This document shows, piece by piece, positions 1,777 through 31,531 of a DNA stretch of 64,000 nucleotides. The stretch's first letter is position 1; each line of letters begins with the position of its first letter. Below the pieces are notes generated by a model, which saw only the letters and a program-made list of their open reading frames with translations, was not told the origin of the DNA and searched no databases. Origin of the DNA: an uncultured Eubacterium sp. (lineage in GTDB: Bacteria; Bacillota; Clostridia; Lachnospirales; Lachnospiraceae); contig CANRTU010000005.1 of NCBI GenBank assembly GCA_947642745.1, forward strand, positions 1 through 64,000, read 5' to 3'. The position numbers and the translations under genes are program-made.

Positions 1777-2028
1777 TTTAAAGAAACGTTTATATCCCGG
1801 ACTTCCAGAATGTCACTTCCAAAAGAATGATCTGAAACCCGGGCTGGCAGAATGGCCGGTAAAGCAGACTGCTAAAGGGCATACGGAAAATTTTGAAAAA
1901 TTGCTCCAAGTAATAAATTAACTGTGGCTGTGATAGCAGGCAATGGAAAGATTTATGGGACAGAAAAGAAGGGAGGTATGTAACTAACTGATTGTAACCA
2001 TTATAAAAGTATGGAAGGATATTTTATT
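1777..2028. other. Intergenic region before the caspase-like gene
   Basis: AT-rich sequence without a convincing gene. A GGGAGG motif near 1970 has no start codon at a usable distance. Confidence 0.4.
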
Positions 2029-4289: not shown

Positions 4290-4290
4290 G

Positions 4291-4314
4291 TTAAAAAAAG
4301 TATACTTTTTTTAA
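4291..4314. promoter_or_regulatory. Palindromic operator-like site 1
   Basis: A perfect 24-bp palindrome centred on GTATAC with flanking A and T runs; core AAAAAAGTATACTTTTTT. It shares this 18-base core with a second palindrome centred exactly 137 bases downstream. Binding by the adjacent recombinase-like protein is an inference. Confidence 0.7.
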
Positions 4315-4330
4315 GTTACTAAATACCTGT

Positions 4331-4350
4331 TGATAGTATTGATTCTATCA
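4331..4350. promoter_or_regulatory. Short inverted repeat between the operator-like sites
   Basis: TGATAG (4331-4336) and CTATCA (4345-4350) form a 6-bp inverted repeat with an 8-base gap, between the two long palindromes. It could be a further protein-binding site; evidence is limited to the symmetry. Confidence 0.3.
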
Positions 4351-4425
4351 TTATTTCGACAAGAATGCAAGAAAAAATAATAGTGTTTTTTGTTTATTAT
4401 GACGGAATTTTATACCAGAAAAATG

Positions 4426-4453
4426 TGTTGAAAAAAGTATACTTTTTTCAACA
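4426..4453. promoter_or_regulatory. Palindromic operator-like site 2
   Basis: A perfect 28-bp palindrome with the core AAAAAAGTATACTTTTTT, ending 21 bases before the ATG of the recombinase-like gene and just upstream of its ribosome binding site. The placement is typical of an autoregulatory operator. Confidence 0.72.
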
Positions 4454-4474
4454 AGAAGTTGCAGGGAGTGATCT

Positions 4475-5089
4475 ATGAGACGGATATACGGTTATGTGCG
4501 TATCCGGTTTCCCGGGCAGGATGCGGACAATCCGATTATTACTATGCGTGAAATGCAGGTTCCGGAAAAAGATATTTTCATAGACAGGCAGGAACAGTAC
4601 GATGACAGTTATATAGAATATCAGAAATTGCTACAGAGACTGAAAGCAGATGATCTGCTTTATATTAAGAGTCTGAACGATCTGGGGACGGATTATCAGG
4701 AGATCGGACAACAATGGAGAACGCTGACCAAAGTCAAAAGGGCGGATGTGGTTGTGCTGGATATGCCGCAATTAGATACCCGGCGTGGAAAAACCCAGTT
4801 TGATACACTGGTGGCAGATATTGTACAGTCTATGCTGGAATATGCGCCAGATGCAGAACGGTCGGCAAGAAAACGCAGACAGCTGGAAGGCATTGCGCAG
4901 GCAAAGAGACGAGGTGTGCAGTTTGGCAGACCGGAACTGCCTTTGCCAGAGAATTTTTTGCAGGTGTATCAGAGCTGGCGAAGAAAAGAAGTAAATGGAG
5001 AAAAAGCAGCGCAAATGTGTCATATGTCAAAAGCTAATTTTTATAAAAAAGCAAGGGAACAAAAGGCGCAGGAAGAAAGCTGTAATTAA
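4475..5089 (+). CDS. Catalytically degenerate serine recombinase homologue, probable DNA-binding regulator
   Basis: A 204-residue protein with resolvase/invertase layout: N-terminal fold (1-~120), long helix and arm with QAKRRGVQFGRPE (about 142-154), and a C-terminal helix-turn-helix (about 160-195). The catalytic positions are changed. GYVRIRFPGQ replaces the GYxRVSTxxQ motif, so the nucleophile Ser becomes Arg11. SLNDLGTDYQEI replaces SxDRLGRxxxEI, so Asp, Arg and Arg become Asn68, Asp69 and Thr72. It should not cut DNA but should still bind it. It sits directly before the glycan locus and just after two shared palindromes, which suggests a transcription regulator that also controls itself. 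A good GGGAG site precedes the ATG. Confidence 0.8.
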   Translation: MRRIYGYVRIRFPGQDADNPIITMREMQVPEKDIFIDRQEQYDDSYIEYQKLLQRLKADDLLYIKSLNDLGTDYQEIGQQWRTLTKVKRADVVVLDMPQLDTRRGKTQFDTLVADIVQSMLEYAPDAERSARKRRQLEGIAQAKRRGVQFGRPELPLPENFLQVYQSWRRKEVNGEKAAQMCHMSKANFYKKAREQKAQEESCN

Positions 5090-5223: not shown

Positions 5224-6609
5224 ATGAGAAAAGCACAAAAAGAGCAGGCGGAAAATTTCATAGCGAATATAGTGTGTGCTCATAAGTGCATATTCATGAC
5301 AAAAAACAGGCAGCATACAGAGTTCATTTTGGAAGTTCTGGAAGATTGTCAGTCTGGAGCGATGATACTTGGGAAAATGATTGAAGAATCTGAAGGTGAG
5401 AGATTTCCAACGATAGCTTTATTGGAAAAATATTGTGAACTGATTTATACAGTTTATGAAAATCTGTTAAATGAACATCAGGGACAAATAATACATGGCT
5501 GCATGAATGCTGTTAACAGCGAACTTTATATTATACTTGGGCAGATTGAATCCAGTGTCAGGAATGAAATAAAGGTAAAAAAAGAAGCTGTGTTTCTGCC
5601 ATATAAGGCGTCCATGTGGGATTCACTGGAATCTGTATGGATGGCACTGGATCAGAATGAGAATTATGATGCTTATGTGGTGCCAGTTCCGTATTATGAT
5701 AAAAATCCAGACGGGAGCTTTCGGGAATTTCATTATGAGATTAGCGGGTATCCGGAAAATGTGCCGGTAGTGGACTATCGGAGTTATGACATTGAGAAAC
5801 GGCGGCCGGATGAAGTGTATATTCATTCACCGTATGATGAATTTAACTATGTGACCAGTGTTGAGCCTTTTTATTATTCAAAAAATCTAAAAAAGTATAC
5901 AGATAAGCTTGTATATATTCCATATTTCATTTTAGAAGAGCCGGATCCGGAAGATACCGCTGTATTAGAAGCCATGGAACATTTTGTTACTGTTCCTGCT
6001 GTTATTCACGCAGATCAGGTGATTGTGCAATCAGAGGCAATGCGGGATGCGTATGTAAAGATTATGACAAAATATATGGAAGGAAAGGGGATGACACAGG
6101 AGTACTGGGAACAGAAGATTCTTGGCACGGGCTCGCCAAAATTTGACGGGCTTGCCAGTCTGCGCCAGAAGGATTTAAAAATTCCGGAACAGTGGAAGAG
6201 AGTTGTTTGTAAACCGGATGGTACATTCAAAAAAATTGTGCTTTATAATACAACAGTTACGGGATTGCTGGAACACAGTGACAGATACATTGCGAAGATG
6301 AGGGACGTATTCCGGATCTTTGAGAAAAATAAAGAGAATGTGGCGCTGCTCTGGCGTCCGCATCCACTGATACAGGCAACTATTTCATCCATGAGACCGC
6401 AGCTCTGGGGAGAGTTCTTAAAGGTCAAAAACGAGTATCTGGAAGCGGGATGGGGAATTTATGATGATTCCGCAGAGCTTTCCAGGGCAATCGGAGTCAG
6501 TGACGCTTATTATGGAGATGGAAGTTCGGTGGTGCAGCTTTGTCAGCGGGTAAAAGTGCCGGTTATGATACAGAATTGTAAAATTATCAGCCGGTCAGGG
6601 GCTGAATAA
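5224..6609 (+). CDS. CDP-glycerol glycerophosphotransferase-like / GT-B type transferase
   Basis: A 461-residue cytoplasmic protein with AAAGGAG before the ATG. After a helical N-terminal region (1-~115) comes a GT-B-like fold with VAPLL-type WRPHPLIQATI (about 378-390) and YYGDGSSVVQLC (about 430-441), motifs seen in the CDP-glycerol:poly(glycerophosphate) transferase family and in transferases of Clostridia glycan loci. It opens the biosynthetic operon. The donor may be CDP-glycerol or a CMP-linked nonulosonate; the sequence does not decide. I recognise the family broadly, not the exact enzyme. Confidence 0.6.
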   Translation: MRKAQKEQAENFIANIVCAHKCIFMTKNRQHTEFILEVLEDCQSGAMILGKMIEESEGERFPTIALLEKYCELIYTVYENLLNEHQGQIIHGCMNAVNSELYIILGQIESSVRNEIKVKKEAVFLPYKASMWDSLESVWMALDQNENYDAYVVPVPYYDKNPDGSFREFHYEISGYPENVPVVDYRSYDIEKRRPDEVYIHSPYDEFNYVTSVEPFYYSKNLKKYTDKLVYIPYFILEEPDPEDTAVLEAMEHFVTVPAVIHADQVIVQSEAMRDAYVKIMTKYMEGKGMTQEYWEQKILGTGSPKFDGLASLRQKDLKIPEQWKRVVCKPDGTFKKIVLYNTTVTGLLEHSDRYIAKMRDVFRIFEKNKENVALLWRPHPLIQATISSMRPQLWGEFLKVKNEYLEAGWGIYDDSAELSRAIGVSDAYYGDGSSVVQLCQRVKVPVMIQNCKIISRSGAE

Positions 6610-6659
6610 GATGAATTCTGATTTTTGGTAAAAGATATATTGTGAAGGAGAAAAAACGA

Positions 6660-7802
6660 ATGATTTCAATGGCTGTTCCTGACCTGACAGGAAATGAGAG
6701 GGCGTATCTGAACGATTGCATAGATACGACGTATGTATCTTCGATCGGCGCTTACGTGGACAGACTGGAAAAAATGACAGCTGATATATGTGGAGCGGAA
6801 TATGCAGTGGCAGTTTCGTCTGGAACGACCGGACTGCACCTGGCATTATATGGATACGGGGTACGTCCGGGCGATCTCGTAATCATTCCGTCTTTTACAT
6901 TCATTGCGACTGCTAATGCGGTGAGTCATTGTGGGGCGGTTCCATGGTTAATGGATATTTGTCCGCAATCATGGACGATGGATGCGGAACAATTGGAAAG
7001 GGAGTTGTCAAAAAAAACAATACGCAATGAATCCGGTCTGATTCACATTCAGAGTGGACGCAGAGTTGCTGCGATCGTGCCGGTTTATACACTTGGAAAT
7101 ATTCCGGATATGGACAGGATCATGGAACTTGCCGGGGAATACCGGTTACCAGTAATCGCAGATGCTGCCGCTGCAATAGGAGCGAAATATAATGGTCTGG
7201 ATATTGGAAGATTTTCTGATTGTTCAGTGTTGTCATTCAATGGGAATAAGACGGTGACAGCGGGCGGCGGCGGGGCAATTATAGGAAATGATGAAGCGGC
7301 TGTATACAGACTCAGACATCTTTCCACAACAGCAAGAGTTAGTGCGGAATATGACTTTGACATGGTAGGGTATAATTACCGGATGACCAATCTGCAGGCA
7401 GCCGTGGGATGCGCACAGTTAGAAAGAGCGGAAAATCTCGTTGGGAGAAAACGCTATATCAGAAAGAAATACAGGGAACTGCTGGAGAAAGTTGCGGGAA
7501 TCTGTTTCTTTCCGGAACCGGAAAATAATATTTCGTCATGCTGGCTTTCGGGAATAGTAATAAGAAATGGAAATTTAAGAAAATTGCGGGAAATTTGTAT
7601 CAGTCTTAAAAATAAAGGAATTGAGGCAAGAACGTTCTGGAAACCGGTTCATTTACAGGAACCGTATAAAAATGCTGTGCGTACGGATGCGCTTGAGGTT
7701 ACAGACGGAATATGGGATAAGATACTGACGTTGCCGTGTTCTACTAATATAACAGATCAGCAGATACATGAAGTTGTCAGGAATATAAAGGAAATTGTAT
7801 AA
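6660..7802 (+). CDS. legC: LegC-type DegT/DnrJ/EryC1 aminotransferase
   Basis: A 380-residue PLP-dependent sugar aminotransferase. ATG 6660 is chosen because AAGGAG at 6645-6650 sits nine bases ahead; an upstream GTG at 6642 overlaps that site. Family marks are VSSGTTGLHLAL (PLP phosphate region), ADAAAAIGAKYNG, and the Schiff-base lysine in FNGNKTVTAGGGG. In legionaminic acid synthesis LegC transfers an amino group to C4 of the 4-keto-6-deoxy-GlcNAc made by LegB. The legB, legG, legI and legF genes nearby support this over other DegT roles. Confidence 0.85.
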   Translation: MISMAVPDLTGNERAYLNDCIDTTYVSSIGAYVDRLEKMTADICGAEYAVAVSSGTTGLHLALYGYGVRPGDLVIIPSFTFIATANAVSHCGAVPWLMDICPQSWTMDAEQLERELSKKTIRNESGLIHIQSGRRVAAIVPVYTLGNIPDMDRIMELAGEYRLPVIADAAAAIGAKYNGLDIGRFSDCSVLSFNGNKTVTAGGGGAIIGNDEAAVYRLRHLSTTARVSAEYDFDMVGYNYRMTNLQAAVGCAQLERAENLVGRKRYIRKKYRELLEKVAGICFFPEPENNISSCWLSGIVIRNGNLRKLREICISLKNKGIEARTFWKPVHLQEPYKNAVRTDALEVTDGIWDKILTLPCSTNITDQQIHEVVRNIKEIV

Positions 7803-7805
7803 ATT

Positions 7806-8858
7806 ATGGAAATAGAAGATTTTATTGTTCCAATAGATATACCAGTGGTGGAACTCATGAAGCAGATTGACCGGAATGCGAAAGGTGTTGTGTATGTATG
7901 TGATGCAGACAGAAAACTGCTGGGAGTAATTACAGATGGAGATGTGAGACGGGCAATCATCCGGAGCGGAAGGCTTGATATGTGCGCACAGTCCATTATG
8001 AAAGCGGATCCTGTAACAGTTAAGGAAGAAGAGCGTGGACAGTCACTGGAAATAATGAAAAAGTATGTGCTTCGTTCTGTTCCTGTTATTTCAGAAAACG
8101 GAAGATTGCTGGAACTGCGTTTTAGTGATGATACACGGTTTCCTGTGTCAGAGAATAAAATTGATGCGCCGGTAGTTATTATGGCAGGCGGAAAGGGTGT
8201 CAGGCTTAAGCCTTATACCAATATTCTTCCAAAGCCTTTAATTCCGATTGGGGATAAAACCATTACAGAGCATATAATTAACCGTTTTGTAAATGCGGGA
8301 TGCAGCCATTTTGATATAATTGTGAATTATAAAAAGCATTTTATTAAGGCCTATTTCAGGGATTTTGATACTGAGGCGGTTATCAGTTTTATAGATGAAA
8401 ATGAGTTTTTAGGAACTGCCGGAGGATTGCGCCTGCTGCCTGGAAAGTATCATGAATCTTTCTTTATGACAAACTGCGATATTCTGATTGAGGAAAATTA
8501 TTCAGAAATCATGAAGTATCATAGGAAGAGTAATAATCTTGCAACAATTGTCTGTGCGGTAAAAAATATTACCCTGCCATATGGAATTATAAAAACCAGG
8601 AAAGATGGAAGCATAAGCGCCATTCAGGAGAAACCGGATATATCGTCTATTGTTAATACCGGGTTTTACGTATTGGAACCGGAATTTCTTGAAAGAATAC
8701 CAGAAGGAAAAGAATCACAGATAACGGACGTATTTCAGTCATGCATTGATGAGGGAATGCGGATCGGTATTTATCCTGTATCGGAAGAGAAGTGGATGGA
8801 CATGGGTCAGATGAATGAATTGCGTAAAATGACAGAACGACTGGGAGATATTGAATGA
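7806..8858 (+). CDS. ptmE: PtmE-like CBS-domain sugar-1-phosphate guanylyltransferase
   Basis: A 350-residue protein: two CBS motifs (about 1-115) followed by a nucleotidyltransferase domain starting APVVIMAGGKGVRLKPYT, with the KPLIPIG motif. This arrangement is that of PtmE, the glucosamine-1-phosphate guanylyltransferase that starts the GDP-linked legionaminic acid route in Campylobacter. The gene begins three bases after legC and ends overlapping the next start (ATGA), so the set is translationally coupled. The CBS pair suggests nucleotide-dependent control. Guanylyl specificity is inferred from family and context. Confidence 0.8.
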   Translation: MEIEDFIVPIDIPVVELMKQIDRNAKGVVYVCDADRKLLGVITDGDVRRAIIRSGRLDMCAQSIMKADPVTVKEEERGQSLEIMKKYVLRSVPVISENGRLLELRFSDDTRFPVSENKIDAPVVIMAGGKGVRLKPYTNILPKPLIPIGDKTITEHIINRFVNAGCSHFDIIVNYKKHFIKAYFRDFDTEAVISFIDENEFLGTAGGLRLLPGKYHESFFMTNCDILIEENYSEIMKYHRKSNNLATIVCAVKNITLPYGIIKTRKDGSISAIQEKPDISSIVNTGFYVLEPEFLERIPEGKESQITDVFQSCIDEGMRIGIYPVSEEKWMDMGQMNELRKMTERLGDIE

Positions 8859-9454
8859 GGTCACTGGTGCTGATTGGCGGTGGCGGACATTGTAAATCTG
8901 TGCTGGATACCGCTTTGCGAATGAATTATTTTAATGAAATTGTAATTACCGACCCGTATATACCAGCCGGGACTATGATTATGGGGTGCAGGGTGATCGG
9001 GAATGATGACATGCTAAAAGAAGTGTACTCATGTGGATATGAACTGGCTTTTATTTCCATAGGGAGTATAAAGACTACAGCATTGAGAAAAAAACTGTGG
9101 CAGAAGGCCAGGGATATCGGATTCAGATTTCCATGTATAACGGATCCTGATGCAATAATATCGGATGATTCTCATATTGATAATGGTACATATATAGGGA
9201 AGAGAGTTGTTGTTAATGCAGGAACATATATTGGTAGTAATGCGATTATTAATACAGGCGCAGTCATTGAACATGATTGCAGGATAGGTGATTTTACACA
9301 TGTGGCGCCGGGAGCGTGTATTTGTGGAGGATGTGATGTGGGAGCCGGTTCGTTTATTGGAGCAAACGCAACACTGATACAGGGAATCCGCATAAGAAGC
9401 GGAGGATTTGTGGGAGCGGGAAAAGTACAGTCAGTATCTGAACATACCGTCTGA
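8855..9454 (+). CDS. NeuD/PglD-family sugar O/N-acyltransferase
   Basis: A 199-residue protein with the PglD-like N-terminal nucleotide-sugar binding module (LVLIGGGGHCKSVLD, about 3-17) and a C-terminal left-handed beta-helix of hexapeptide repeats (about 100-190; DFTHVAPGACICGG, GSFIGANATLIQGI). The catalytic His is probably in IEHDCRIGDFTHVAPGA. Homologues acetylate the C4 amino group of legionaminic or bacillosamine precursors, or O-acetylate sialic acids. Between ptmE and legI it most likely acetylates the LegC product. Overlaps ptmE by four bases. Confidence 0.82.
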   Translation: MRSLVLIGGGGHCKSVLDTALRMNYFNEIVITDPYIPAGTMIMGCRVIGNDDMLKEVYSCGYELAFISIGSIKTTALRKKLWQKARDIGFRFPCITDPDAIISDDSHIDNGTYIGKRVVVNAGTYIGSNAIINTGAVIEHDCRIGDFTHVAPGACICGGCDVGAGSFIGANATLIQGIRIRSGGFVGAGKVQSVSEHTV

Positions 9455-9477
9455 GGCAGACGAAGAGGTGAAATAAT

Positions 9478-10476
9478 ATGGGGCATGTATATGTAATCGC
9501 AGAAGCCGGGGTGAATCATAATGGCAGCCTGGACAATGCAAAGAAACTGATAGAAGCTGCTGCAGAAGCCGGAGCGGATGCGGTTAAATTTCAGACGTTT
9601 ATTCCGGAGAATCTCGTTTCAAAATATGCTGATAAAGCGGATTATCAAAAAGCGGCAACTGATGCGGAAGAAAGTCAGCTGGAAATGCTCAGAAGACTGA
9701 TGCTGAAAAAAGATGATCATCCGGTACTGATCGAATACGCCGGAAAAAAAGGTATTCAGTTTCTGTCTTCGCCTTTTGATTTTGACAGTATTGATTTTCT
9801 GGCAGGTCTGGAACTGCCTCTGTATAAAATACCTTCGGGAGAAGTCACGAATCTTCCTTATCTGGAGAAAATCGGTAAATTAGGAAAACCGGTTATTTTA
9901 TCTACTGGTATGTCATCGCTGGAAGAAGTCAGGGAGGCAGCTGCCATCTTAAAGAAAGAAGGATGTCCACTGGTCTCTGTGCTGCATTGTAATACGGAGT
10001 ATCCAACGCCGTATGAAGATGTCAGTCTCCGGGCAATGAGTGTAATCAGGGAGGCTTTACAGGTTCCTGTCGGATATTCAGATCACACGACAGGTATAGA
10101 AGTTCCGGTTGCGGCAGTTGCGTTGGGAGCGGAGATTATAGAGAAGCATTTTACACTTGACAGAAATATGAGAGGTCCCGATCATAAAACAAGTCTTGAG
10201 CCTGATGAACTGGCGTGCATGATCAGGTCTGTCAGAAATATAGAAAAAGCACTGGGTACCTTTGAGAAGAAGGTCTCCGGATCTGAAAAAAACAATGTCA
10301 AAATAGTTAGAAAAAGTATAGTAGCCCGGAAAGCTATAAATAAAGGGGAATTGCTTACAGAAGGGAATATTACAGTAAAAAGGCCGGGAACAGGAATAAG
10401 CCCCATGATGTGGCACAGTGTACTGGGGACAAAGGCAATTCGTAATTTTAAGGAAGATGAGCTGATAGAGATATGA
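9478..10476 (+). CDS. legI: Legionaminic acid synthase (NeuB/LegI family)
   Basis: A 332-residue protein: TIM-barrel synthase domain (1-~270) opening YVIAEAGVNHNGSLDNAKKLIEAA with the family motif KFQTF, PSGEVTNLPYL, STGMSS and GYSDHTTG, then a C-terminal SAF (antifreeze-like) domain (about 278-332). It condenses phosphoenolpyruvate with a 6-deoxy-diacetamido-mannose type sugar to give the nine-carbon acid. NeuB, PseI and LegI are close relatives; the neighbouring LegB, LegC and LegG point to legionaminic acid. GAGGTG precedes the ATG. Confidence 0.88.
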   Translation: MGHVYVIAEAGVNHNGSLDNAKKLIEAAAEAGADAVKFQTFIPENLVSKYADKADYQKAATDAEESQLEMLRRLMLKKDDHPVLIEYAGKKGIQFLSSPFDFDSIDFLAGLELPLYKIPSGEVTNLPYLEKIGKLGKPVILSTGMSSLEEVREAAAILKKEGCPLVSVLHCNTEYPTPYEDVSLRAMSVIREALQVPVGYSDHTTGIEVPVAAVALGAEIIEKHFTLDRNMRGPDHKTSLEPDELACMIRSVRNIEKALGTFEKKVSGSEKNNVKIVRKSIVARKAINKGELLTEGNITVKRPGTGISPMMWHSVLGTKAIRNFKEDELIEI

Positions 10477-11657
10477 AACGGATATGTGTTCTTACTGCCA
10501 CAAGGGCAGAATACGGGCTGCTTTCGCCGCTTATCAAAAAACTAAACAGAGAGCCCGGGTTTGATGTCAGGCTGGTAGTTACGGGAATGCATCTTTCACC
10601 GGAATTCGGACTGACATGGAAAGAGATTGAAGCAGACGGCATACATATTGATAAAAAAACAGAGATGCTGCTAAGTGCGGATACTCCGGCGGCAATTACA
10701 AAAAGCATGGGAGTAGCGCTGATATGTTTTGCGGATTATTTTACTGAAATAAATCCGGATGCGCTGATAGTACTGGGAGACCGGTACGAAACACTGGCTG
10801 TCTGTATTGCGGCAATGAATGCACGGATACCCGTTATTCATATACATGGAGGAGAAACGACAGAAGGAGTGATTGATGAGGCGGTGCGTCATTCTGTCAC
10901 CAAGATGAGTATCTGTCACTTTACAAGTACCGAGGAGTATCGCAGACGCATTATCCAGATGGGGGAGCAGCCTTCCAGAGTATTTAATGTAGGAGCGTTA
11001 GGTGTTGAAAATGCACTGCATGTCAGACTATCAGGCCGGCAGGAACTGGAGAGCAGGCTGGGCATTCCGCTATCCGGAGTATATGCGGTAGGCACATTTC
11101 ACCCGGTTACGCTGGAACGTACAGGTACAGAGGAGCAGATCCGTGAATTATTAAAAGCATTGGATCAGAATTCGGAAATAACTTATCTGTTTACAAAAGC
11201 GAATGCAGATCAGGATGGAAGGATTATCAATGATTTATTAAAGAAATATGCAGAGAAACATAATAACTTCTTTCTTGCAGATTCCCTGGGCGCAAAGAAT
11301 TATCTGAGTGCATTAAAATATGCTTCATTTGTGATTGGAAATTCTTCCAGTGGATTGATAGAAGCGCCTGCGTTTGGTATTCCAACGATAAATATCGGTG
11401 ACAGACAGAAAGGAAGAATTGCGGGTAAAACAGTCATAAACTGTACGCCGGAAGCAAAAGATATTGACAGGGCAGTGAAAAAGGCAATGGATAAAGTATT
11501 TCGCAATTCGCTGAAAAATGCTGTCAATCCATATGGGGATGGAAACACCTCCGGCAGGATTGTGGATATATTAAAACAGCAGATATTGTGTCATCCGGTT
11601 AATATAAAAAAGCAGTTTTATAATATAGAGTTAACGAATGTAACTGAGGAAACATGA
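10473..11657 (+). CDS. legG: Hydrolysing UDP/GDP-sugar 2-epimerase (NeuC/LegG family)
   Basis: A 394-residue GT-B-fold epimerase beginning MKRICVLTATRAEYGLLSPL, with LGDRYETLA, HIHGGETTEG, the substrate loop TFHPVT and GNSSSGLIEAPAFG, all marks of hydrolysing 2-epimerases of the NeuC type. It releases nucleotide and inverts C2, giving the free manno sugar used by LegI. Coupled to legI by ATGA overlap. A non-family tail of about 15 residues ends the protein. Confidence 0.87.
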   Translation: MKRICVLTATRAEYGLLSPLIKKLNREPGFDVRLVVTGMHLSPEFGLTWKEIEADGIHIDKKTEMLLSADTPAAITKSMGVALICFADYFTEINPDALIVLGDRYETLAVCIAAMNARIPVIHIHGGETTEGVIDEAVRHSVTKMSICHFTSTEEYRRRIIQMGEQPSRVFNVGALGVENALHVRLSGRQELESRLGIPLSGVYAVGTFHPVTLERTGTEEQIRELLKALDQNSEITYLFTKANADQDGRIINDLLKKYAEKHNNFFLADSLGAKNYLSALKYASFVIGNSSSGLIEAPAFGIPTINIGDRQKGRIAGKTVINCTPEAKDIDRAVKKAMDKVFRNSLKNAVNPYGDGNTSGRIVDILKQQILCHPVNIKKQFYNIELTNVTEET

Positions 11658-11877
11658 GAACATTTTTATCAGACTGTATGGAGATTTCCGGAATGTCTCA
11701 TCTTTTCCGGACAGTTTGATTTCCGTTCAGATTATAGAATTTAATACAGAAACCGGGGAAGAATTATTTCTGAGGAATCCTAAAAATACAGAGACTCCGG
11801 CATGGATCTGTGGAGCAGAATGTAAGGTCCTGTATGCGGATGGATTCCGGATAATAAGGTATATGGAGCAGATATGA
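11654..11877 (+). pseudogene. Small gene with apparent single-base frameshift in a T5 tract
   Basis: An ATG at 11654 with GAGG five bases ahead opens a frame that stops after 21 codons. The frame that starts at the T run 11663-11667 stays open to TGA 11875-11877, and that stop overlaps the legB start as ATGA, the coupling used elsewhere in this operon. One extra T would join them into a protein of about 74 residues ending IIRYMEQI. So this is a real small gene that is frameshifted, phase-variable, or a sequencing error. No family was recognised; the peptide is acidic and soluble. Confidence 0.55.
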
Positions 11878-12857
11878 AAAACAGGGTATTGGTTACTGGT
11901 GCGGATGGATTTATAGGAAGTCATCTGACAGAGGAACTTGTAAAAAGAGGTTATGGCGTAAAAGCGTTCGTGTTTTATAATTCATTTAACAACTGGGGAT
12001 GGCTGGATAGTCTGGATGATAATATTATGAGCCAGGTAGAAGTTTTCACAGGAGATATAAGGGATCCCCACGGTGTAAAAACAGCCATGCAGGGGTGTGA
12101 CGCAGTCTTTCATCTGGCTGCTTTAATAGGGATTCCTTTCAGCTATCATTCGCCGGATGCATATGTGGATACGAATATAAAAGGAACCCTGAACGTTTTG
12201 CAGGCAGCAAGGGAGCAGGAAATCCACAGGGTGCTTGTAACATCCACATCTGAGGTATACGGTACTGCCAGATATGTTCCTATTGATGAGCAACATCCTT
12301 TTCAGGGACAGTCGCCTTATGCGGCGACAAAGATTGGCGCAGACAGGCTGGCAGAATCATTTTATAGAAGTTTCGGACTTCCGGTCAGCATAGTGAGGCC
12401 GTTTAATACATATGGGCCCAGACAATCTGCAAGGGCGGTAATCCCAACAATTATCACGCAGTTACTGGATGGAAAAAATAAGATTAAACTGGGATCGCTG
12501 ATTCCGACAAGAGACTTTAATTTTGTTAAAGATACGGTGAATGGATTTGTGGCTGTTTATGAGTCAGACCAGACAATTGGTGAAGAGATTAACATAGCCA
12601 GTGGAAGAGAAATATCTATAGGCAATATGGCGGAAGAATTAATCCGCCAGATTAATCCGGACGCAGAAATTGTCTGTGACGGAGCACGTATACGACCAGT
12701 AAACAGTGAAGTAAACCGTTTACTTGGCTCCAATGACAGACTGAGGGCACTGACAGGCTGGGAACCGGAATGGTCATTTACTGAAGGAATCCGTGAAACA
12801 GTAGGATGGTTCAGAGAACATAAAAATTATTATAAAGGTGATCTGTATAACATCTAA
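11874..12857 (+). CDS. legB: NAD-dependent sugar 4,6-dehydratase (LegB)
   Basis: A 327-residue extended SDR enzyme: NAD-binding VTGADGFIGSHL (residues 7-18), substrate-site TSTSEVYGTA with the catalytic Thr/Ser region, and YAATKIGAD with the catalytic Tyr-Lys pair. AALIGIPFSYHSP and RPFNTYGPRQSARAVIPTII are typical of LegB. It makes the 4-keto-6-deoxy-HexNAc nucleotide used by LegC. The ATG overlaps the stop of the preceding small frame. Confidence 0.88.
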   Translation: MKNRVLVTGADGFIGSHLTEELVKRGYGVKAFVFYNSFNNWGWLDSLDDNIMSQVEVFTGDIRDPHGVKTAMQGCDAVFHLAALIGIPFSYHSPDAYVDTNIKGTLNVLQAAREQEIHRVLVTSTSEVYGTARYVPIDEQHPFQGQSPYAATKIGADRLAESFYRSFGLPVSIVRPFNTYGPRQSARAVIPTIITQLLDGKNKIKLGSLIPTRDFNFVKDTVNGFVAVYESDQTIGEEINIASGREISIGNMAEELIRQINPDAEIVCDGARIRPVNSEVNRLLGSNDRLRALTGWEPEWSFTEGIRETVGWFREHKNYYKGDLYNI

Positions 12858-12867
12858 AGGGCAGATT

Positions 12868-13671
12868 ATGAAAATAGTATTATTAGAAAGCTGTATTGTA
12901 TGGGAAAACCGGAATAAAAATATAGAAATATTTGAACAGGATTTAGATGAGATATCCCGCTTACATGAAACAGATATCGTATGTCTTCCGGAAATGTCGT
13001 TCACCGGATTTTCCATGAATGCCGGACTGACAAAAGATGTTGAACATATAACCATCTGCAGAATGCAGGAATTATCCCAAAAATATCATACAATGCCTGC
13101 GTTTGGGTGGGTTGATGAAACTTCGGACGGATTCGAAAATCATTATTCAATCGTGACCCCGGACGGGCTCGGGCTGGATTACCAGAAAATCCATCCGTTC
13201 GCTTATGGCGGAGAGGCTGCTGTATTTACCGCCGGAACACAATTAAGAATAAATTATATAAGAGATTTCTGTGTAGGGATTCAGATCTGCTATGATCTGA
13301 GATTTCCGGAAACATTCCAGATTCTTTCCAAAAAGGCGGAACTGATTATCGTTCCCGCAAACTGGCCTCGTGAAAGAGTGGAACATTGGGATGTACTTTT
13401 ACGGGCGAGGGCGATAGAAAATCAGGTATATCTGGCTGGAATTAACTGCCGGGGCGTGATGAATGGAGTGACATACGGCGGACATTCTGTTCTGATTGCT
13501 CCTGATGGCAGCTATTGTGAAGGAGAGCGGGTCATACTTGGCAGTAAAAATCAGGCCTGTATTTATGAGATTCATAATGATACAGCTGATTTTAGAAAAC
13601 GGTTTCCTGCTAAACAGGACAGGAGAGAAAGTCTTTATGATGAACTGGCGGTAAATATGGAGAAAATGTAA
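12868..13671 (+). CDS. Carbon-nitrogen hydrolase (nitrilase superfamily)
   Basis: A 267-residue enzyme starting at ATG 12868 behind AAAGG; the frame can be extended upstream to a GTG inside legB but without support. The Glu-Lys-Cys triad is visible: Glu in CLPEMSFTGF, Lys in DYQKIHPFAYGGE, Cys in GIQICYDLRFPE. The superfamily hydrolyses amides or nitriles, including glutamine in NAD synthetases. Its place in a sugar locus is unusual. It could deacylate or deamidate a sugar intermediate or release ammonia for the amidotransferase encoded at 18268. Substrate unknown. Confidence 0.85.
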   Translation: MKIVLLESCIVWENRNKNIEIFEQDLDEISRLHETDIVCLPEMSFTGFSMNAGLTKDVEHITICRMQELSQKYHTMPAFGWVDETSDGFENHYSIVTPDGLGLDYQKIHPFAYGGEAAVFTAGTQLRINYIRDFCVGIQICYDLRFPETFQILSKKAELIIVPANWPRERVEHWDVLLRARAIENQVYLAGINCRGVMNGVTYGGHSVLIAPDGSYCEGERVILGSKNQACIYEIHNDTADFRKRFPAKQDRRESLYDELAVNMEKM

Positions 13672-14657
13672 TGAAAGTTATTGTAGCAGGTCTGGGTTCA
13701 ATGGGAAAAAGGCGGATAAGACTCTTAAGAGACCTTGATCCTGGCATAAATATAATTGGTTTTGATTCTGATCCTGAAAGAAGGAAACAGGCTGGGAATG
13801 AATTTGTAATCCGTACGGTGGAAAGTATGGAGGAGGCATGTGATGAGCCGGATGTACGTATGGCTTTTATCAGTTCATCTCCATTGTCGCATGCTTCAAT
13901 TACCAGTCAGTGCCTGAAAAAAGGCCTCCATGTATTCTCAGAAATAAATCTTGTGGCAGATGGATATGATGAGAACATTGCGCTGGCTAAAGAAATGGGA
14001 AGGGTATTATTTCTTTCGTCTACATTTATGTATCGAAGGGAGATTCAATATATAAAGAAACGCTTAGAGGAGTACAACCATCCTGTTAATTATATGTATC
14101 ATGTAGGACAATATTTACCGGACTGGCATCCCTGGGAGAATTATAAGGATTTCTTTGTAGGAAAAAAGGCTACAGGCGCATGCAGGGAACTGATGGCGAT
14201 AGAGTTTCCATGGCTGACAGATACATTTGGTGATGTAATCAATATCTGTAGGACAAAAAGGAAAAGCAGTTCATTAGAGATAGAATATCCGGATACTTTT
14301 CAGATATTATTAGATCACAAAAGCGGTCATCAGGGAATGATATTAATTGACATTATTTCGAGAAAAGCCGTAAGACGGTTTGAAATGATTGGTGAAGGGA
14401 TATTTCTTGCATGGAGTGGGACGCCGGATAGTTTAATAGAATATAACATGGAGAGAAAGGATGATGAGCAGGTAAATGTGTATCATGTTTTTGAAAGAAG
14501 ACAGGATTATAGTGAATTTATTATTGAAGACGCATATTTAAATGAAATTGAAAATTTTTTTGATGTGATACAAAGAAAAGATATTCCCAGATATTCCTTT
14601 GAGAAGGATAAAGAGATACTTGGCTTAATTGATAAAATAGAAGGAGAAAAGGTTTGA
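13671..14657 (+). CDS. Gfo/Idh/MocA-family oxidoreductase, copy 1
   Basis: A 328-residue NAD(P)-dependent oxidoreductase opening VIVAGLGSMGKRRIRLLRDL (Rossmann motif), with the MocA C-terminal beta domain and GQYLPDWHPWENYKDFFVGK (about 143-162). It is clearly paralogous to the enzyme encoded at 16687, which has the same LPDWHPWEN block. Members oxidise or reduce sugar hydroxyls. It shares one base with the preceding stop and overlaps the aminotransferase start, so it may supply a keto-sugar for amination. The canonical Lys of EKP is replaced here (SEINL), as in divergent members. Confidence 0.83.
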   Translation: MKVIVAGLGSMGKRRIRLLRDLDPGINIIGFDSDPERRKQAGNEFVIRTVESMEEACDEPDVRMAFISSSPLSHASITSQCLKKGLHVFSEINLVADGYDENIALAKEMGRVLFLSSTFMYRREIQYIKKRLEEYNHPVNYMYHVGQYLPDWHPWENYKDFFVGKKATGACRELMAIEFPWLTDTFGDVINICRTKRKSSSLEIEYPDTFQILLDHKSGHQGMILIDIISRKAVRRFEMIGEGIFLAWSGTPDSLIEYNMERKDDEQVNVYHVFERRQDYSEFIIEDAYLNEIENFFDVIQRKDIPRYSFEKDKEILGLIDKIEGEKV

Positions 14658-15955
14658 CACAAAATGAGGCTTACAGAAAAAAGGCACATCATCTGATACC
14701 TGCCGGCGCACATACATATAGCAGAACGGATGAGGTGTTTCCGGCAAATGCTCCGGGAATTATAGAACAGACAAAGGGAGTGTATTGCTGGGACGCAGAT
14801 GGAAATAAATACCTGGATTATGGTATGGCGTGCAGATCCGTAACAGTCGGATATGGTTTTCAGAGAATTTCAGATGCTGCGATAGAGTATATAAAAAAGG
14901 GAAATACGGCAACGAAAGCATCCACTGTAGAAGTGGATGCGGCAGAGACTCTTGTTAATCTGATTCCATGGGTGGACATGGTAAAGTTTGCTAAAAACGG
15001 ATCTACAGTAACTACTGCGGCGGTTAAACTTGCACGTGCGTATACTGGGAAAAAGTACATAGTCAGATGCAGGGAGCATTCTTTTTTTTCTTATGATGAC
15101 TGGTTTATCGCAGATACAGTTATGAACTGTGGCATTCCTGATGAAATAAAAGGGCTTACTCTGCAATTTGCCTACAATGACCTGGATTCCATAAAAAATG
15201 TTTTTGAAGAATACAAGGGGCAGATCGCATGTCTGATTATGGAACCGGCGGAGACGGAAGAACCCCGTGATGGTTTTCTGCAAAAAGCAGGGGAGCTGTG
15301 CAAAGAGTACGGAGTAGTTTATATACTGGATGAAATGATTACCGGTTTCCGGTGGGATATTCAGGGCGCATGTAAATATTATGGGGCAGAGCCGGACCTG
15401 GTGACATACGGTAAAGGAATGGCGAACGGATTTTCAGTAGCGGCATTGGGCGGAAAAAGAGAGATCATGGAACTTGGAGGATTGATACCGGGAAAAGAAA
15501 GGGTTTTTCTGATCTCAACAACACATGGTGCGGAAATGTGTGGACTCGGAGCATTCATAGAGACAGTCCGGGTATATAAAGAACTGAATGTAACAGACCA
15601 TATGTGGAATACGGGAAAAAAATTATGCGATGGATTAAAGGAAATAGCAGGTGAATTTAATCTTGATCATTATGTATATGTCAGTGGTGCTGCGTGTTCT
15701 CCGAATCTTGTGGTATGTGGAAAGGATAAAAAACCTTCTGCGGAATACCGGACGGTTTTATTACAGGAAATGCTTAACGGTGGAATCTTGATGCCGTATA
15801 TATCAATCGCTTATGAACATACAGAGACTGAGGTGGAAATTACACTTGAAGCATTCAGAAAAGCGATGAAAGTATATGCGGAAGCGTTAAATGGAGATGT
15901 ATCCGTATATCTGAATGGAAATACGATCAGACCTGTGTTTAGAAAATATAATTAA
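14654..15955 (+). CDS. Class III aminotransferase (glutamate-1-semialdehyde aminomutase-like)
   Basis: A 433-residue PLP enzyme. The start is TTG 14654, supported by AAGGAG at 14641-14646 and the absence of an in-frame ATG near the conserved N-terminus. Motifs: GMACRSVTVGYG, KFAKNGSTVTTAAVKLARA, ILDEMITGFRW (PLP-binding Asp) and TYGKGMANGF (Schiff-base Lys). HemL itself is unlikely in this setting; such proteins in surface-sugar loci probably aminate a keto group on a sugar or side chain. The adjacent oxidoreductases could make that keto group. Confidence 0.8.
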   Translation: MTQNEAYRKKAHHLIPAGAHTYSRTDEVFPANAPGIIEQTKGVYCWDADGNKYLDYGMACRSVTVGYGFQRISDAAIEYIKKGNTATKASTVEVDAAETLVNLIPWVDMVKFAKNGSTVTTAAVKLARAYTGKKYIVRCREHSFFSYDDWFIADTVMNCGIPDEIKGLTLQFAYNDLDSIKNVFEEYKGQIACLIMEPAETEEPRDGFLQKAGELCKEYGVVYILDEMITGFRWDIQGACKYYGAEPDLVTYGKGMANGFSVAALGGKREIMELGGLIPGKERVFLISTTHGAEMCGLGAFIETVRVYKELNVTDHMWNTGKKLCDGLKEIAGEFNLDHYVYVSGAACSPNLVVCGKDKKPSAEYRTVLLQEMLNGGILMPYISIAYEHTETEVEITLEAFRKAMKVYAEALNGDVSVYLNGNTIRPVFRKYN

Positions 15956-15973
15956 TAAAGAAGTGGAAATGAA

Positions 15974-16687
15974 ATGTATAACAGAAAAAAAATACTTGCG
16001 GTTATAACTGCGAGAGGAGGATCCAAAGGCCTTCCGGATAAAAATATAAGAATATTAAACGGAAAGCCGCTTGTAGCATGGACAACGGGTCAGGCAGATA
16101 AGAGTAAATATATAGATAACATTTTCGTATCCACAGACAGTAAAGAAATTGCGGATGTGTGTGAAAAGTATGGGACTCCGGTACCTGAATTAAGACCCGG
16201 GGAACTTGCGGAAGATACGACTTCGTCTGTAGAAGTACTTTTATATACGATCAGTCTGCTGAAAGAAAGAGGGCAGGAATATGATTATCTTCTTTTACTT
16301 GAACCAACATCCCCGCTCCGAAAAGAAAACGATATAGACCGGATGATAGAAACTGCTGTAAATAATCCGGAGGTGGATGGAGTAATTTCTTTAGGCAGGG
16401 TTCATCTGGAACATCCTTCAATTATAAAGAAAGTGGATGGGAAGGGATTTATTTGTCCTTATAATAAAGATGCGAAAACATATTATCAGCGTCAGCTTGA
16501 GGATGAAGCATTCTTTCCTTACGGGGCAGGATATATTGTACGTGTTGACCGGTTTATGGAGACAAAGTCGATATACATGGAACATATGCTGCCATATTAT
16601 ATTGAGCGATGGCAGAATTATGAGATAGATGATCTGTATGATTTCAAATGCATAGAAACCATCATGAAAATGGAGGCAATCAGATAA
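15974..16687 (+). CDS. legF: CMP-nonulosonate cytidylyltransferase (NeuA/LegF family)
   Basis: A 237-residue enzyme beginning LAVITARGGSKGLPDKNI, the CTP-binding signature of acylneuraminate cytidylyltransferases, followed by LLLEPTSPLR and DGVISLGRV. It activates the nonulosonic acid as the CMP sugar for transfer. Its separation from legI and legG by tailoring genes suggests the modified sugar may be the substrate. The stop overlaps the next start (TAATG). Confidence 0.87.
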   Translation: MYNRKKILAVITARGGSKGLPDKNIRILNGKPLVAWTTGQADKSKYIDNIFVSTDSKEIADVCEKYGTPVPELRPGELAEDTTSSVEVLLYTISLLKERGQEYDYLLLLEPTSPLRKENDIDRMIETAVNNPEVDGVISLGRVHLEHPSIIKKVDGKGFICPYNKDAKTYYQRQLEDEAFFPYGAGYIVRVDRFMETKSIYMEHMLPYYIERWQNYEIDDLYDFKCIETIMKMEAIR

Positions 16688-17682
16688 TGGGTGGATATTA
16701 CATTAAAGGTCTGGGTTCAATGGGATGCAGACGGGTCCGCTGCCTTACAGCGCTTGGCGTAAAGCCTGGGGAAATATGGGGAAATGATATCAGGGAGGAC
16801 AGGTGTATTTCCGCAAAAGAAAGATATGGAATAAATATAGTAAATGATGAATCAGAATTGGATTTTAACGTGATAGACGCTATTATTGTTTCACTTCCAC
16901 CGGACAGGCATAAAACGGGGGTCGATATTGCCAGGAAACATGGAAAACCTGTATTTGTTGAGGCCAGCGTTATACTGGATGAGGTTATGCAGATCAAGAA
17001 AGAAAGTACGGGGATATTTGTGGCGCCTTCGTGTACATTTGTGTTTCATCCTATGATAAAGGAAGTTAAGAATATAGTCAGATCAGGAAGACTGGGAAAT
17101 GTATGCAATTTTTCGTATCACAGCGGACAATATCTGCCTGACTGGCATCCCTGGGAAAATGTAAAAGATTTTTATGTAAGTAACAGAAAAACCGGCGGAG
17201 CAAGAGAGATTGTACCGTATGAATTGACATGGATTACGGATGTCTTTGGATTTCCCAGAGATATAAAAGGGTTTTTCAGAAAAACCGGGGAAACCGGGTG
17301 TGATATTGAAGATAGTTATGCATGTTGTCTGGATTACGGGGAAATGACAGGAACGCTTCTGGTGGATGTGGTAAGCAGATATCCCGCAAGGAATCTGATT
17401 ATCAATTTCCAGAATGGACAGATTCAATGGAAATGGGATAATAACAGACTGGACATATATGATGCCGCAAGTGGAATCACAACTTTTGCAGAACAGGAAG
17501 AGCAGATTCACGAGACCGGATATAGTGATATGATTGGTGAAAAAATGTATATAGATGAAATTTCGGCATTTTTGAACGGAATCAAAAATCCGCTGGCTTA
17601 TCCTAATCATATGGACAAGGACGAAGCTGTACTAAGACTGCTTGACAGACTGGAATCTTCGGATGGCGGATTTGCCAGGTAA
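16687..17682 (+). CDS. Gfo/Idh/MocA-family oxidoreductase, copy 2
   Basis: A 331-residue paralogue of the enzyme at 13671, starting at ATG 16687 overlapping the legF stop. N-terminal GLGSMGCRRVRCL is the dinucleotide-binding loop; the shared block GQYLPDWHPWENVKDFYVS and the following TGGAREIVPYELTWITD correspond to copy 1. Two related oxidoreductases flanking an aminotransferase and the cytidylyltransferase suggest successive redox steps on one sugar, for example oxidation then epimerising reduction. Substrate not known. Confidence 0.82.
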   Translation: MGGYYIKGLGSMGCRRVRCLTALGVKPGEIWGNDIREDRCISAKERYGINIVNDESELDFNVIDAIIVSLPPDRHKTGVDIARKHGKPVFVEASVILDEVMQIKKESTGIFVAPSCTFVFHPMIKEVKNIVRSGRLGNVCNFSYHSGQYLPDWHPWENVKDFYVSNRKTGGAREIVPYELTWITDVFGFPRDIKGFFRKTGETGCDIEDSYACCLDYGEMTGTLLVDVVSRYPARNLIINFQNGQIQWKWDNNRLDIYDAASGITTFAEQEEQIHETGYSDMIGEKMYIDEISAFLNGIKNPLAYPNHMDKDEAVLRLLDRLESSDGGFAR

Positions 17683-17710
17683 CGAATACAAAGAGCTGAC
17701 AGGAGCAAAT

Positions 17711-18292
17711 ATGTTAGAATTGCATGATGGACCAATAACGCTGCGGGAATTTCTCATTAATGACAGTTGTTTCGGGACATATTATGAATGGGTCAGATGT
17801 TATGAAAATATGAGGCTTGTAGGCCGTAGAGAATATTTTCTTTCTGTTGACATGGAAGAGGTTCGTGAATATGTCCGCCAGCTTGGCAAGAGCAGGTCAG
17901 ACTGTTTCTTTCTGATTCTATACGAAGGAAACGCAATCGGAACGTTAAAGATAGGACATATTAATTGGGAGACACTGACGGCGGATATAGGCGTGATGAT
18001 TGGCGATAGGAAAATGCGTGGGAAAGGACTCTCCATTCTGGCGGTGAAAGCCGCAGTGAAATATTCGTTTGAAGTACTGGGAATGAGAAAACTGTCGGGA
18101 GGATGCGCATCAGAAAATATTCCCATGCAAAAATGCTTTGAACAATGTGGATTTGTAAAAGAAGGAAATGAAAGACAATCGCTATACATAGAAGGAAAGT
18201 ATCAGGATCATTTATGGTACGGTATGCTGATCGACGAGTATAAAACATTTCGGGAAAGGATGGAAAAATGCAGAGATGTAAAAGATGCTTAA
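17711..18292 (+). CDS. GNAT N-acetyltransferase (RimJ/RimL type)
   Basis: A 193-residue protein from ATG 17711 behind AGGAG; a longer TTG reading overlaps the previous gene and lacks support. The acetyl-CoA site is seen in MIGDRKMRGKGLSILAVKAAV, and the C-terminal CFEQCGFVKEG ... YIEGKYQDHLWYGML resembles PseH-like sugar N-acetyltransferases. In this operon it probably acetylates an amino-sugar nucleotide or the new amine made by the class III aminotransferase. It overlaps the next gene by 25 bases. Confidence 0.78.
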   Translation: MLELHDGPITLREFLINDSCFGTYYEWVRCYENMRLVGRREYFLSVDMEEVREYVRQLGKSRSDCFFLILYEGNAIGTLKIGHINWETLTADIGVMIGDRKMRGKGLSILAVKAAVKYSFEVLGMRKLSGGCASENIPMQKCFEQCGFVKEGNERQSLYIEGKYQDHLWYGMLIDEYKTFRERMEKCRDVKDA

Positions 18293-19365
18293 TGCCTGAA
18301 ACGAGACCAAGAATGAAATTTACATCCGGAGGTTTATGTACGGCATGTGAGTGGGCGGACATAAAAAAGCAGACAGACTGGAAAAAACGTAAAAATGAGT
18401 TACGGAATTTGTGCGACGGGATCAGAGGAAAAAGTCAGTGGGATTGTATCGTACCGGTATCGGGTGGAAAAGATTCCACGTATGTTGCGGACAAAATGAA
18501 AAATGAGTATGACCTGAATATACTTACAGTAACGATTACACCTCCGCTTGAAACAGAGATTATTCAGAATAATCTGAAAAATTTTCTGGAAAAGGGATTT
18601 GATAACATAAAAGTAACACCAAATCCGGAAATAACAAGGGAAATAAACAAAAAGTGTTTTATTGAACAGGGCAGGCCATTAAATGGATGGACATCATGCG
18701 TTCAGTCCGTGATGTTTAAATTTGCGACAAATTTCCGTATTCCTCTTGTGATGTTTGGGGAGGAGGGAGAAACGGAATACGGCGGCACAACGGAAATGAG
18801 ATATGTACCATATTATGATGCTGATTATGCAATTAAAGTATACACAGAAGGAAATAACCCTGGAATGTATGTGGACAGCTATAAAGAAGGAGAATTAAGT
18901 CTGTGGCTGTATCCGGATGAGGAAGATATGAGAGCCGCTGATTTTAAGGTGGGACACTGGTCTTACTTTGAAAACTGGGATCCATATGATCATTGGATTT
19001 TTGCGAGAGATCATTATGGAATGAAGAAAAGCAGCCAGAGAAATACGGGGACATATTCAGACTTTGGCCAGATTGACACGCCTTTATATATACTGCATAC
19101 ATACATGATGTATCTGAAATTTGGGTTTGGAAGGTGTCTCCAGGATGCCTGTATAGATGTGAGGGCAGGCAGGTTATCCAGAGAGGAAGCTGTCAGTTAT
19201 GTGAATCAATATGACGGAGAGCCTGTAGATGAGTATGTACCGGTTTTTCTTGACTATTTTCAAATGAGTGAAGAAGAATTTTATGAAGTAATAAAGCGGC
19301 ATATGAACCGCAATTTGTTTAAGTGGAATCATGGACGGGCCGAAAAAATTTTCACAATAGAATGA
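18268..19365 (+). CDS. N-acetyl sugar amidotransferase (PseA/WbpG/LegX-like)
   Basis: A 365-residue member of the PP-loop ATPase group: CKRCLMPETRP and CTACEW give the cysteine pairs near the N-terminus, and PVSGGKDSTYVADKMK (about 64-79) is the ATP pyrophosphatase loop. WbpG and PseA convert an acetamido group on a sugar to an acetamidino group, in Pseudomonas with a HisH/HisF-like ammonia supplier. No such supplier is encoded here. Combined with the Leg genes the likely product is an acetamidino-legionaminic-type sugar. AAAGGA precedes the ATG. Confidence 0.83.
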   Translation: MQRCKRCLMPETRPRMKFTSGGLCTACEWADIKKQTDWKKRKNELRNLCDGIRGKSQWDCIVPVSGGKDSTYVADKMKNEYDLNILTVTITPPLETEIIQNNLKNFLEKGFDNIKVTPNPEITREINKKCFIEQGRPLNGWTSCVQSVMFKFATNFRIPLVMFGEEGETEYGGTTEMRYVPYYDADYAIKVYTEGNNPGMYVDSYKEGELSLWLYPDEEDMRAADFKVGHWSYFENWDPYDHWIFARDHYGMKKSSQRNTGTYSDFGQIDTPLYILHTYMMYLKFGFGRCLQDACIDVRAGRLSREEAVSYVNQYDGEPVDEYVPVFLDYFQMSEEEFYEVIKRHMNRNLFKWNHGRAEKIFTIE

Positions 19366-19429
19366 AGAAATAATACAAGATGCTTTGTTCCGGAACATAG
19401 GTTTGAAAGAAGCAGGCTGGAGGAAAAAA

Positions 19430-21717: not shown

Positions 21718-21755
21718 TCTGAAAGATACAGACTGTAATTAACTGGAGAAACAGA

Positions 21756-22871: not shown

Positions 22872-22968
22872 ATACACGGGAGATTCTTTTTATAAACGAT
22901 GAAATTATCTTATCAAAAAAAACACCTTTTGTATTACAGGGTTTCTTTAAATCCGGAGTGGAGCTGAC

Positions 22969-24846: not shown

Positions 24847-24867
24847 TACCTGTATGGAGAAGATGGA

Positions 24868-26031: not shown

Positions 26032-26086
26032 GTATACGGATGTGGTGACACTACGGGTTAATTGTTTTGGGATAACAGGCATATTT

Positions 26087-30693: not shown

Positions 30694-30761
30694 TCAATAC
30701 GGGGAGTAATCGCTGACAAATATCGTATCCTGTACAACAATAAATGACGGAGAATACTATA

Positions 30762-31424: not shown

Positions 31425-31531
31425 TAGAAAGACGATTATGAAACAGATCAACAGGCAGGTACACAACAGAATATGGATAAATATAAGGCATGTATATAAA
31501 TGGCATAATCAGAAGGGATGGTTATATTTGA

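Follow-up and report, generated by a model that had tools for sequence, protein, structure and literature searches.

A catalytically dead relative of serine invertases at the head of a glycan cluster, behind a putative promoter switch, in a Lachnospiraceae-type bacterium

The sites of Hin/Gin-type serine invertases are 26 bp long with A-tract half-sites, and the invertible segment of Hin is longer than the one described below. Sin and gamma-delta resolvases are not known as promoter invertases. To our knowledge, neither UpxY nor UpxZ, the proteins with which we compare the protein studied here, is a recombinase relative. According to excerpts of PMC7315117, regulatory genes stand at the start of several Bacteroides glycan operons; in the capsule operons antitermination is the role of UpxY, which is itself acted on by UpxZ, and UpxZ represses non-adjacent loci. 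Many surface-glycan loci per genome stand behind invertible promoters in Bacteroides fragilis, where the serine recombinase Mpi acts on the capsule promoters at a distance (excerpts of PMC4747536). Invertible elements near surface genes have been described in defined gut communities, also in Clostridia, where the strongest link in the excerpts is to a tyrosine-type recombinase; the word "serine" is absent from the main text (PMC11892184). No report of a dead serine invertase acting as a regulator or heading such loci was found in searches of open-access papers.

The locus described here lies in a window of 64,000 nucleotides of an uncultured Eubacterium sp. genome (G000, 88% complete). As in the Mpi system, several different glycan loci with like promoters occur in one genome (identified by Pfam for the window locus and by reading for the others), and a serine recombinase acting at a distance is predicted. 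In contrast to that system, the host is of the Lachnospiraceae type, the cluster is headed by a dead invertase instead of UpxY/UpxZ, and both inversion and action in trans are putative. No NusG-like, that is UpxY-like, head gene was detected by Pfam among the 21 of 26 cluster ORFs scanned. The traits of Hin/Gin systems recur in part: the window protein belongs to the same domain family, sequence comparison reveals a C-terminal helix-turn-helix with a minor-groove arm, and a pair of ~26-bp dyad sites flanks a segment next to the gene. Intact relatives are found beside such promoter segments, two of them before flagellin-like genes. Unlike in Hin/Gin systems, the catalytic residues are lost and the gene is downstream of the switch, not inside it.

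The first gene of the cluster (4475..5089, + strand) starts with ATG and encodes a 204-residue product. Residues 5–148 match the Resolvase N-terminal domain PF00239 (E 4e-7; 30.6 bits, above the curated cut-off of 23.3 bits); a search of NCBIfam with the same protein returned no match. When a profile of its clade was compared with the PDB, the best-scoring solved structures by sequence were Sin (2r0q) and gamma-delta resolvase (1zr2, 1gdt), active recombinases whose catalytic residues are intact in the alignment. In all three PDB alignments the substitutions of the clade fall on the active-site serine and the DRLGR arginines. Residues are referred to below by what we take to be gamma-delta numbering. 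Both the PDB profile alignment and an alignment with intact paralogues place Arg11 of the window protein at Ser10, Tyr46 at Arg45, Asn68 at Asp67, Asp69 at Arg68 and Thr72 at Arg71, which bears out the first-pass annotation for the serine and DRLGR positions. That annotation had also taken every visible catalytic residue to be replaced. This is true of Ser10, Arg45, Arg68 and Arg71, while equivalents of Arg8 (R9), Glu118 (E128), Arg119 (R129) and Arg125 (R135) remain. By sequence, the protein has both the arm, FGRPELPLPENF, and the C-terminal helix-turn-helix, which the annotation had said look intact. The window protein thus has the resolvase domain without the catalytic set of Ser10 and Arg45/Arg68/Arg71.

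A search of G000 with PF00239 gave 16 matches, seven of them dead in the same sense. An eighth dead paralogue, on contig C68, was found through the site search described below and then confirmed with the clade profile. The eight genes are located on contigs C4, C5 (the window), C18, C21, C36, C49, C63 and C68; four close paralogues, C2, C17, C19 and C89, have the intact serine and DRLGR arginines. One more dead member was identified in a congener, the uncultured Lachnospiraceae genome G001 (locus L029). The catalytic serine and both DRLGR arginines are absent in all nine proteins, and the Arg45 column still holds arginine in one of them (C68), beside an insertion. The remaining homologues that cover the motifs in the alignment have an intact serine and a DRLGR-type motif, with slight deviations in L094 and L095; two broken genus homologues (G003 C93 and G010 C81) were left unclassed. 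Scoring up to seven candidates per genome in 397 family genomes added no further dead member, and the only other match of that search, a G384 gene, is intact. Viral contigs contributed a single homologue (L180, 48% identity). In a 57-row tree the nine dead proteins form one clade (support 100/100) with a stem of 0.78; its neighbour is C19, a placement that is less well supported (93/65).

The dead proteins are under constraint. Pairwise dN/dS within the clade, computable for 26 of 36 pairs, ranges from 0.05 to 0.26; dS is saturated. Four lost catalytic positions, chosen for this analysis because they were lost, lie between the 85th and 97th percentile of variability (mean entropy 2.01 versus 0.73; permutation p 0.0004). 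Conservation among the eight paralogues is highest in the recognition stretch (83% mean identity), the arm (81%) and residues 61–108 (79%), and lowest in residues 1–60 (61%). Loss of catalysis with retention of the protein under constraint is therefore well supported. A random open reading frame or a misaligned motif is countered by the clade, the low dN/dS and the PDB profile alignment.

Upstream of the gene and of its probable ribosome-binding site AGGGAG (4463..4468, + strand, read from the sequence), dyad analysis revealed two palindromes. The distal (left) site, also recovered by a core search, is a near-perfect 26-bp palindrome, GTTAAAAAAAGTATACTTTTTTTAAG (4290..4315); the proximal (right) site is a perfect 28-bp palindrome, TGTTGAAAAAAGTATACTTTTTTCAACA (4426..4453). 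Both are centred on GTATAC. They share the 18-bp core AAAAAAGTATACTTTTTT (4294–4311 and 4431–4448), which has no other copy in the window at up to three mismatches (chance mean 0.04). The sites delimit a putative invertible segment of 137 bp centre to centre (4303..4439), a reading based on the spacing at sister loci and on inversion of like modules beside intact recombinases. Inside it lies a sigma-A-type promoter element, TTGCAT-17-TAGAAT (4342..4370, − strand), whose position is conserved in sister segments. A known RNA leader element was considered and rejected, as a search of window positions 1–34000 against Rfam returned no hit. The sequence 2011–3651, just upstream of the switch and on the same strand, reads as a secreted-type protein with a caspase-like stretch.

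Across G000, site pairs with 0–1 mismatch and 136–137 bp apart were found on C4, C5, C21, C49, C63 and C68. Each stands upstream of a dead recombinase gene, so that six of the eight dead paralogues have both sites; at C4 an extra gene lies between switch and recombinase. The pair at C18 is decayed (85 bp apart), and single sites occur at the contig starts of C36, before the dead gene, and C88. The pair at the G001 dead gene is 138 bp apart with one site degraded. With C18 decayed and C36/C88 ambiguous, seven dead-locus segments are readable, six in G000 and one in G001; spacing is 136–138 bp in all seven. The exact 16-mer is commoner in the genome than its reversed control (5 versus 0), whereas the pattern with three mismatches is not (144 versus 184); among the mismatch classes, only that of 0–1 is conspicuous. 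All seven readable segments align with one another in a single orientation, and no inversion was seen among them.

Several observations were made along these loci. Contigs C36 (L013) and C88 (L026) break in or beside the switch site and may be neighbours, judging by synteny with G001. Mixed orientations may have disrupted assembly there; as proof of inversion the break was rejected as suggestive only, since a short shared core could also break assembly. At L033, L059, L037, C63 and C4, locus-specific arms that match within the site extend the palindromes to 32–38 bp, and inversion would exchange these arms. As RNA the extended palindromes would form long hairpins, one of which (L029) is followed by a T-run, as in a terminator. 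A GTATAC pair 136 bp apart was also met in another genus of the family (L099, G299, 1501–1652), upstream of a small gene and of a secreted-type protein rich in repeats; the 3 kb fetched contains no recombinase of the family. In G000, a flagellin-like gene (by reading) lies behind a decayed switch of the same type (L125, C14, 1140–3806), and the 7 kb fetched likewise lacks a recombinase of the family.

We next describe the modules beside intact recombinases. Of 68 distinct loci, 29 have a site pair in the interval scanned, which reached 300 bp upstream and 450 bp downstream of the gene. In 22 of 25 loci the recombinase frame ends no more than 40 bp from the first site. No site arose when the sequence of the non-dead loci (827,639 bases) was shuffled once. 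The cores are mostly GTGTAC together with GTACAC, so the two sites are inverted repeats. A tyrosine-recombinase inverton was considered and rejected, as the same type of site lies directly behind intact serine recombinases. Among the genes downstream (22 loci, read without Pfam) are some for secreted-type proteins and one that resembles an O-acyltransferase gene; flagellins occur there in G007 and G009. At the latter two loci (L124 for G009, L123 for G007) an intact serine recombinase is followed by a GTATAC pair and then by the flagellin-like gene, and the outward strand of the switch bears a sigma-28-like box; the arrangement is similar to that of Hin. At L133 (G000 C89, 331–2663) the intact recombinase is followed by a GTGTAC/GTACAC pair 167 bp apart and a gene that reads like an MBOAT-type O-acyltransferase.

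The segment of G009_C97 aligned with those of G004_C1b and G007_C8 only when reversed (z 11.3 and 9.2; forward, −0.1 and 0.7). Compared with G004_C1b it contains the same promoter turned around, and the palindrome arms, assigned by eye, are exchanged, as recombination at the site centre predicts. The relation between arms and promoter direction was then compared in 16 intact loci, a set without ambiguous rows, L090, the second pairs at L003 and L062, and all dead loci. The promoter pointed away from the gene in 12 of 13 loci with arms paired within the site and toward it in 3 of 3 with arms paired across sites (p 0.007). Only L042 was discordant, or L082 when the plain score was used. Across four combinations of scoring and row choice p ranged from 0.005 to 0.028; with the unweighted consensus the values were 0.014 and 0.009 when the same rows were dropped and 0.028 and 0.005 with all rows. 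That arm pairing always marks the OFF state was rejected: by eye, the surface-protein switches of G003 and G006 look cross-paired while OFF. As judged from these comparisons, modules of this kind beside intact relatives do invert within the genus. A third line of evidence is a G005 contig on which one segment occurs twice in opposite orientations between three sites (L138, C18, 1501–1768; exact inverted copy), before a surface-protein-like gene. The 11 kb fetched contains no recombinase of the family, and the contig may have been assembled from both states.

The distance between sites is phased at 10.5 bp (R 0.70, p ~4e-6) in 25 intact loci, a set without L041, L054 and L085, whose sites are looser, L090, which comprises three overlapping pairs, and the second pairs at L003 and L062. 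Since several loci share a distance of ~136 bp, perhaps by descent, distinct distances were tested too: the 18 among these loci gave p 8e-4. For all 33 pairs R was 0.62 (p 3e-6), with p 0.002 for 23 distinct distances. The spacing at the dead loci corresponds to 13 helical turns. Such phasing is expected if the sites are bridged on one face of the DNA.

The promoter element of the window recurs at the same place in sister segments, on the strand leading away from the gene. This strand holds the best promoter match in 6 of 6 segments under one weighted score and in 7 of 7 under a later one, which was written after the dead segments had been seen and credits their motif. A plain consensus count instead scores the forward strand higher at four of six dead loci, with one tie and one lower. 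The outward direction is favoured because the element is conserved and closely resembles one seen inverting in relatives; the element at 4342–4370 thus probably points away from the gene, the OFF orientation. Among the dead loci, the pairing of arms can be read either way at C63 and C68, and at C21 it tends toward the opposite assignment. At C63 a sigma-28-like box (TAAA-N16-GCCGATAT) overlaps the promoter element.

No intact invertase adjoins the dead loci that were fetched. The best candidate elsewhere in the genome is C17, by its clade and by co-occurrence only. This intact recombinase belongs to a clade supported 98/99 in the 57-row tree, which comprises seven orphan genes without a nearby site, one per genome in 7 of 13 genus genomes, and three genes with adjacent site pairs, all three of the GTATAC type. 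Nine other recombinases of the genus with adjacent pairs have GTGTAC/GTACAC cores. GTATAC pairs with no recombinase adjacent to the switch, dead ones being disregarded, were found in 5 of the 7 genomes that have a C17-type gene and in 0 of the 6 that lack it (p 0.021); with the degraded G001 pair at the dead gene included, the count is 6 of 7 (p 0.005). Several points run counter to this assignment. A GTATAC pair with one mismatch occurs in G002, where no C17-type gene was found, an intact gene outside the tree (L058) has a GTATAC site, and the count leaves the two broken homologues of G003 and G010 unclassed. The dead clade is nearer to C19 than to C17 in the tree, so that shared sites are not assured. 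With the genome 88% complete, another invertase may be missing from the assembly.

The dead recombinase gene is the first of a run of same-strand genes of ~28 kb with Pfam glycan functions, in agreement with the earlier statement that it heads a glycan locus. The second gene (5224..6609, + strand) is CDP-glycerol glycerophosphotransferase-like (Pfam E 0.0015, below the cut-off). It is followed by ~26 kb of same-strand genes, in which a glycan cluster of the nonulosonic-acid type (6642..32146, + strand) was delineated by Pfam from 21 of 26 cluster ORFs, the recombinase included. The cluster encodes a DegT aminotransferase, a nucleotidyltransferase, NeuB, a UDP-GlcNAc 2-epimerase, a cytidylyltransferase, sugar dehydratases and glycosyltransferases. 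All eight dead paralogues of G000 stand, by reading, at the heads of different glycan clusters. Similar-looking proteins follow the dead gene at sister loci on reading, and different genes lie behind it by eye; Pfam analysis of three sister second genes gave a weak glycerophosphotransferase match at C4 and none at C36 and C49.

The original reading of the gene was that of a transcription regulator devoid of catalysis, acting possibly on the ~28-kb operon. The loss of catalysis under constraint and the position at the operon head agree with it. It had missed the putative invertible promoter, the eight paralogues at different clusters and the intact relatives at promoter-inversion modules; a transcription regulator of the operon therefore becomes a regulator at a phase-variation switch. 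We tentatively favour, at a little short of an even chance, the view that the dead protein descends from a Hin-like promoter invertase and is a DNA-binding regulator of its own switch and probably of sister loci. Its cutting chemistry has been lost and its DNA-binding stretches kept; it would still bind DNA and act there. The palindromic sites, a whole number of helical turns apart, enclose a small promoter segment, and comparison supports inversion of this type of module in relatives. An intact paralogue elsewhere in the genome, with C17 as best candidate, would flip such segments in trans. In a locus flipped ON, the dead recombinase would be the first protein made (the second at C4). It would bind the paired GTATAC sites as a dimer or loop and occupy them. 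Occupancy of switch sites by a non-cutting invertase relative is the most economical mechanism. It would stabilise or damp the locus from which the protein is made and shield the other loci from the invertase; as a result, only a few glycan clusters would be expressed at a time.

In a stronger form of this proposal, which we consider doubtful, the dead invertase is an exclusivity factor: each of the eight paralogues is made only from an ON locus, binds the GTATAC pairs of its sisters and blocks the active trans invertase. The coat expressed first would thereby be fixed, with the remaining loci held OFF. This would be the counterpart, based on occupancy, of the exclusion exerted by UpxY/UpxZ, in which repression of non-adjacent loci follows the same logic. 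Somewhat less doubtful, though still unlikely, is a frozen switch: inversion of the segment would have ceased here, and the dead protein would be an ordinary auto-regulator that binds two operators and loops the DNA between them. This alternative stays real because every readable copy lies the same way (7 of 7) and the direction of the promoter is not beyond doubt, a forward promoter being possible under the plain consensus count. The lack of an adjacent intact invertase in the loci fetched and the decayed sites of the C14 flagellin switch and the C18 switch are also consistent with it. However, the promoter element conserved across loci would point away from the operon, and six loci retain both sites in near-perfect form and at a fixed distance. 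The genome has also kept an intact recombinase of the C17 type, and such modules do invert in the genus.

The dead protein could instead be a non-cutting partner subunit that joins an active paralogue in mixed dimers or tetramers and thereby directs inversion to its own locus or poisons it there. The tetrameric mode of action of serine recombinases is compatible with such a role. Tetramers have been described for Hin (excerpts of PMC4513852), and residues 61–108 are conserved (79% mean identity) in spite of the lost active site. The E-helix stretch, however, is less conserved in the dead paralogues (0.68) than in C17 orthologues (0.91), and we regard this role as improbable. A decaying pseudogene riding along with the glycan clusters would account for the loss of the catalytic residues and the free variation at their positions. 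It is made very improbable by the open reading frame in all nine members, by dN/dS values far below 1 for the computable pairs, by the conserved arm and recognition stretch and by the position at the start of each cluster, and we set it aside on the dN/dS and residue-variability analyses. Recombination through a non-canonical active site deserves hardly any credence: the Arg8 and Glu118 positions are retained in 9 of 9 clade members, but the variation at Ser10 (R, C, H or W) and Arg71 (T, E, M, A or S) fits no substitute nucleophile.

The favoured view, a non-cutting invertase relative that occupies its own and probably sister switches, connects an enzyme that became a regulator with the type of DNA site cut by its relatives. 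The eight copies, each heading a different cluster and most of them behind a putative switch, suggest that an enzyme without activity has been taken on to govern the choice of coat. The site pair, its helical spacing and the arm swap are readable signatures by which such switches can be found in unannotated genomes. With switches of the window type, a single gut bacterium may select among eight surface glycans. If so, the system would be a Clostridia counterpart of the Bacteroides capsule system and would represent a new principle of control, in which a dead invertase competes with a live one.
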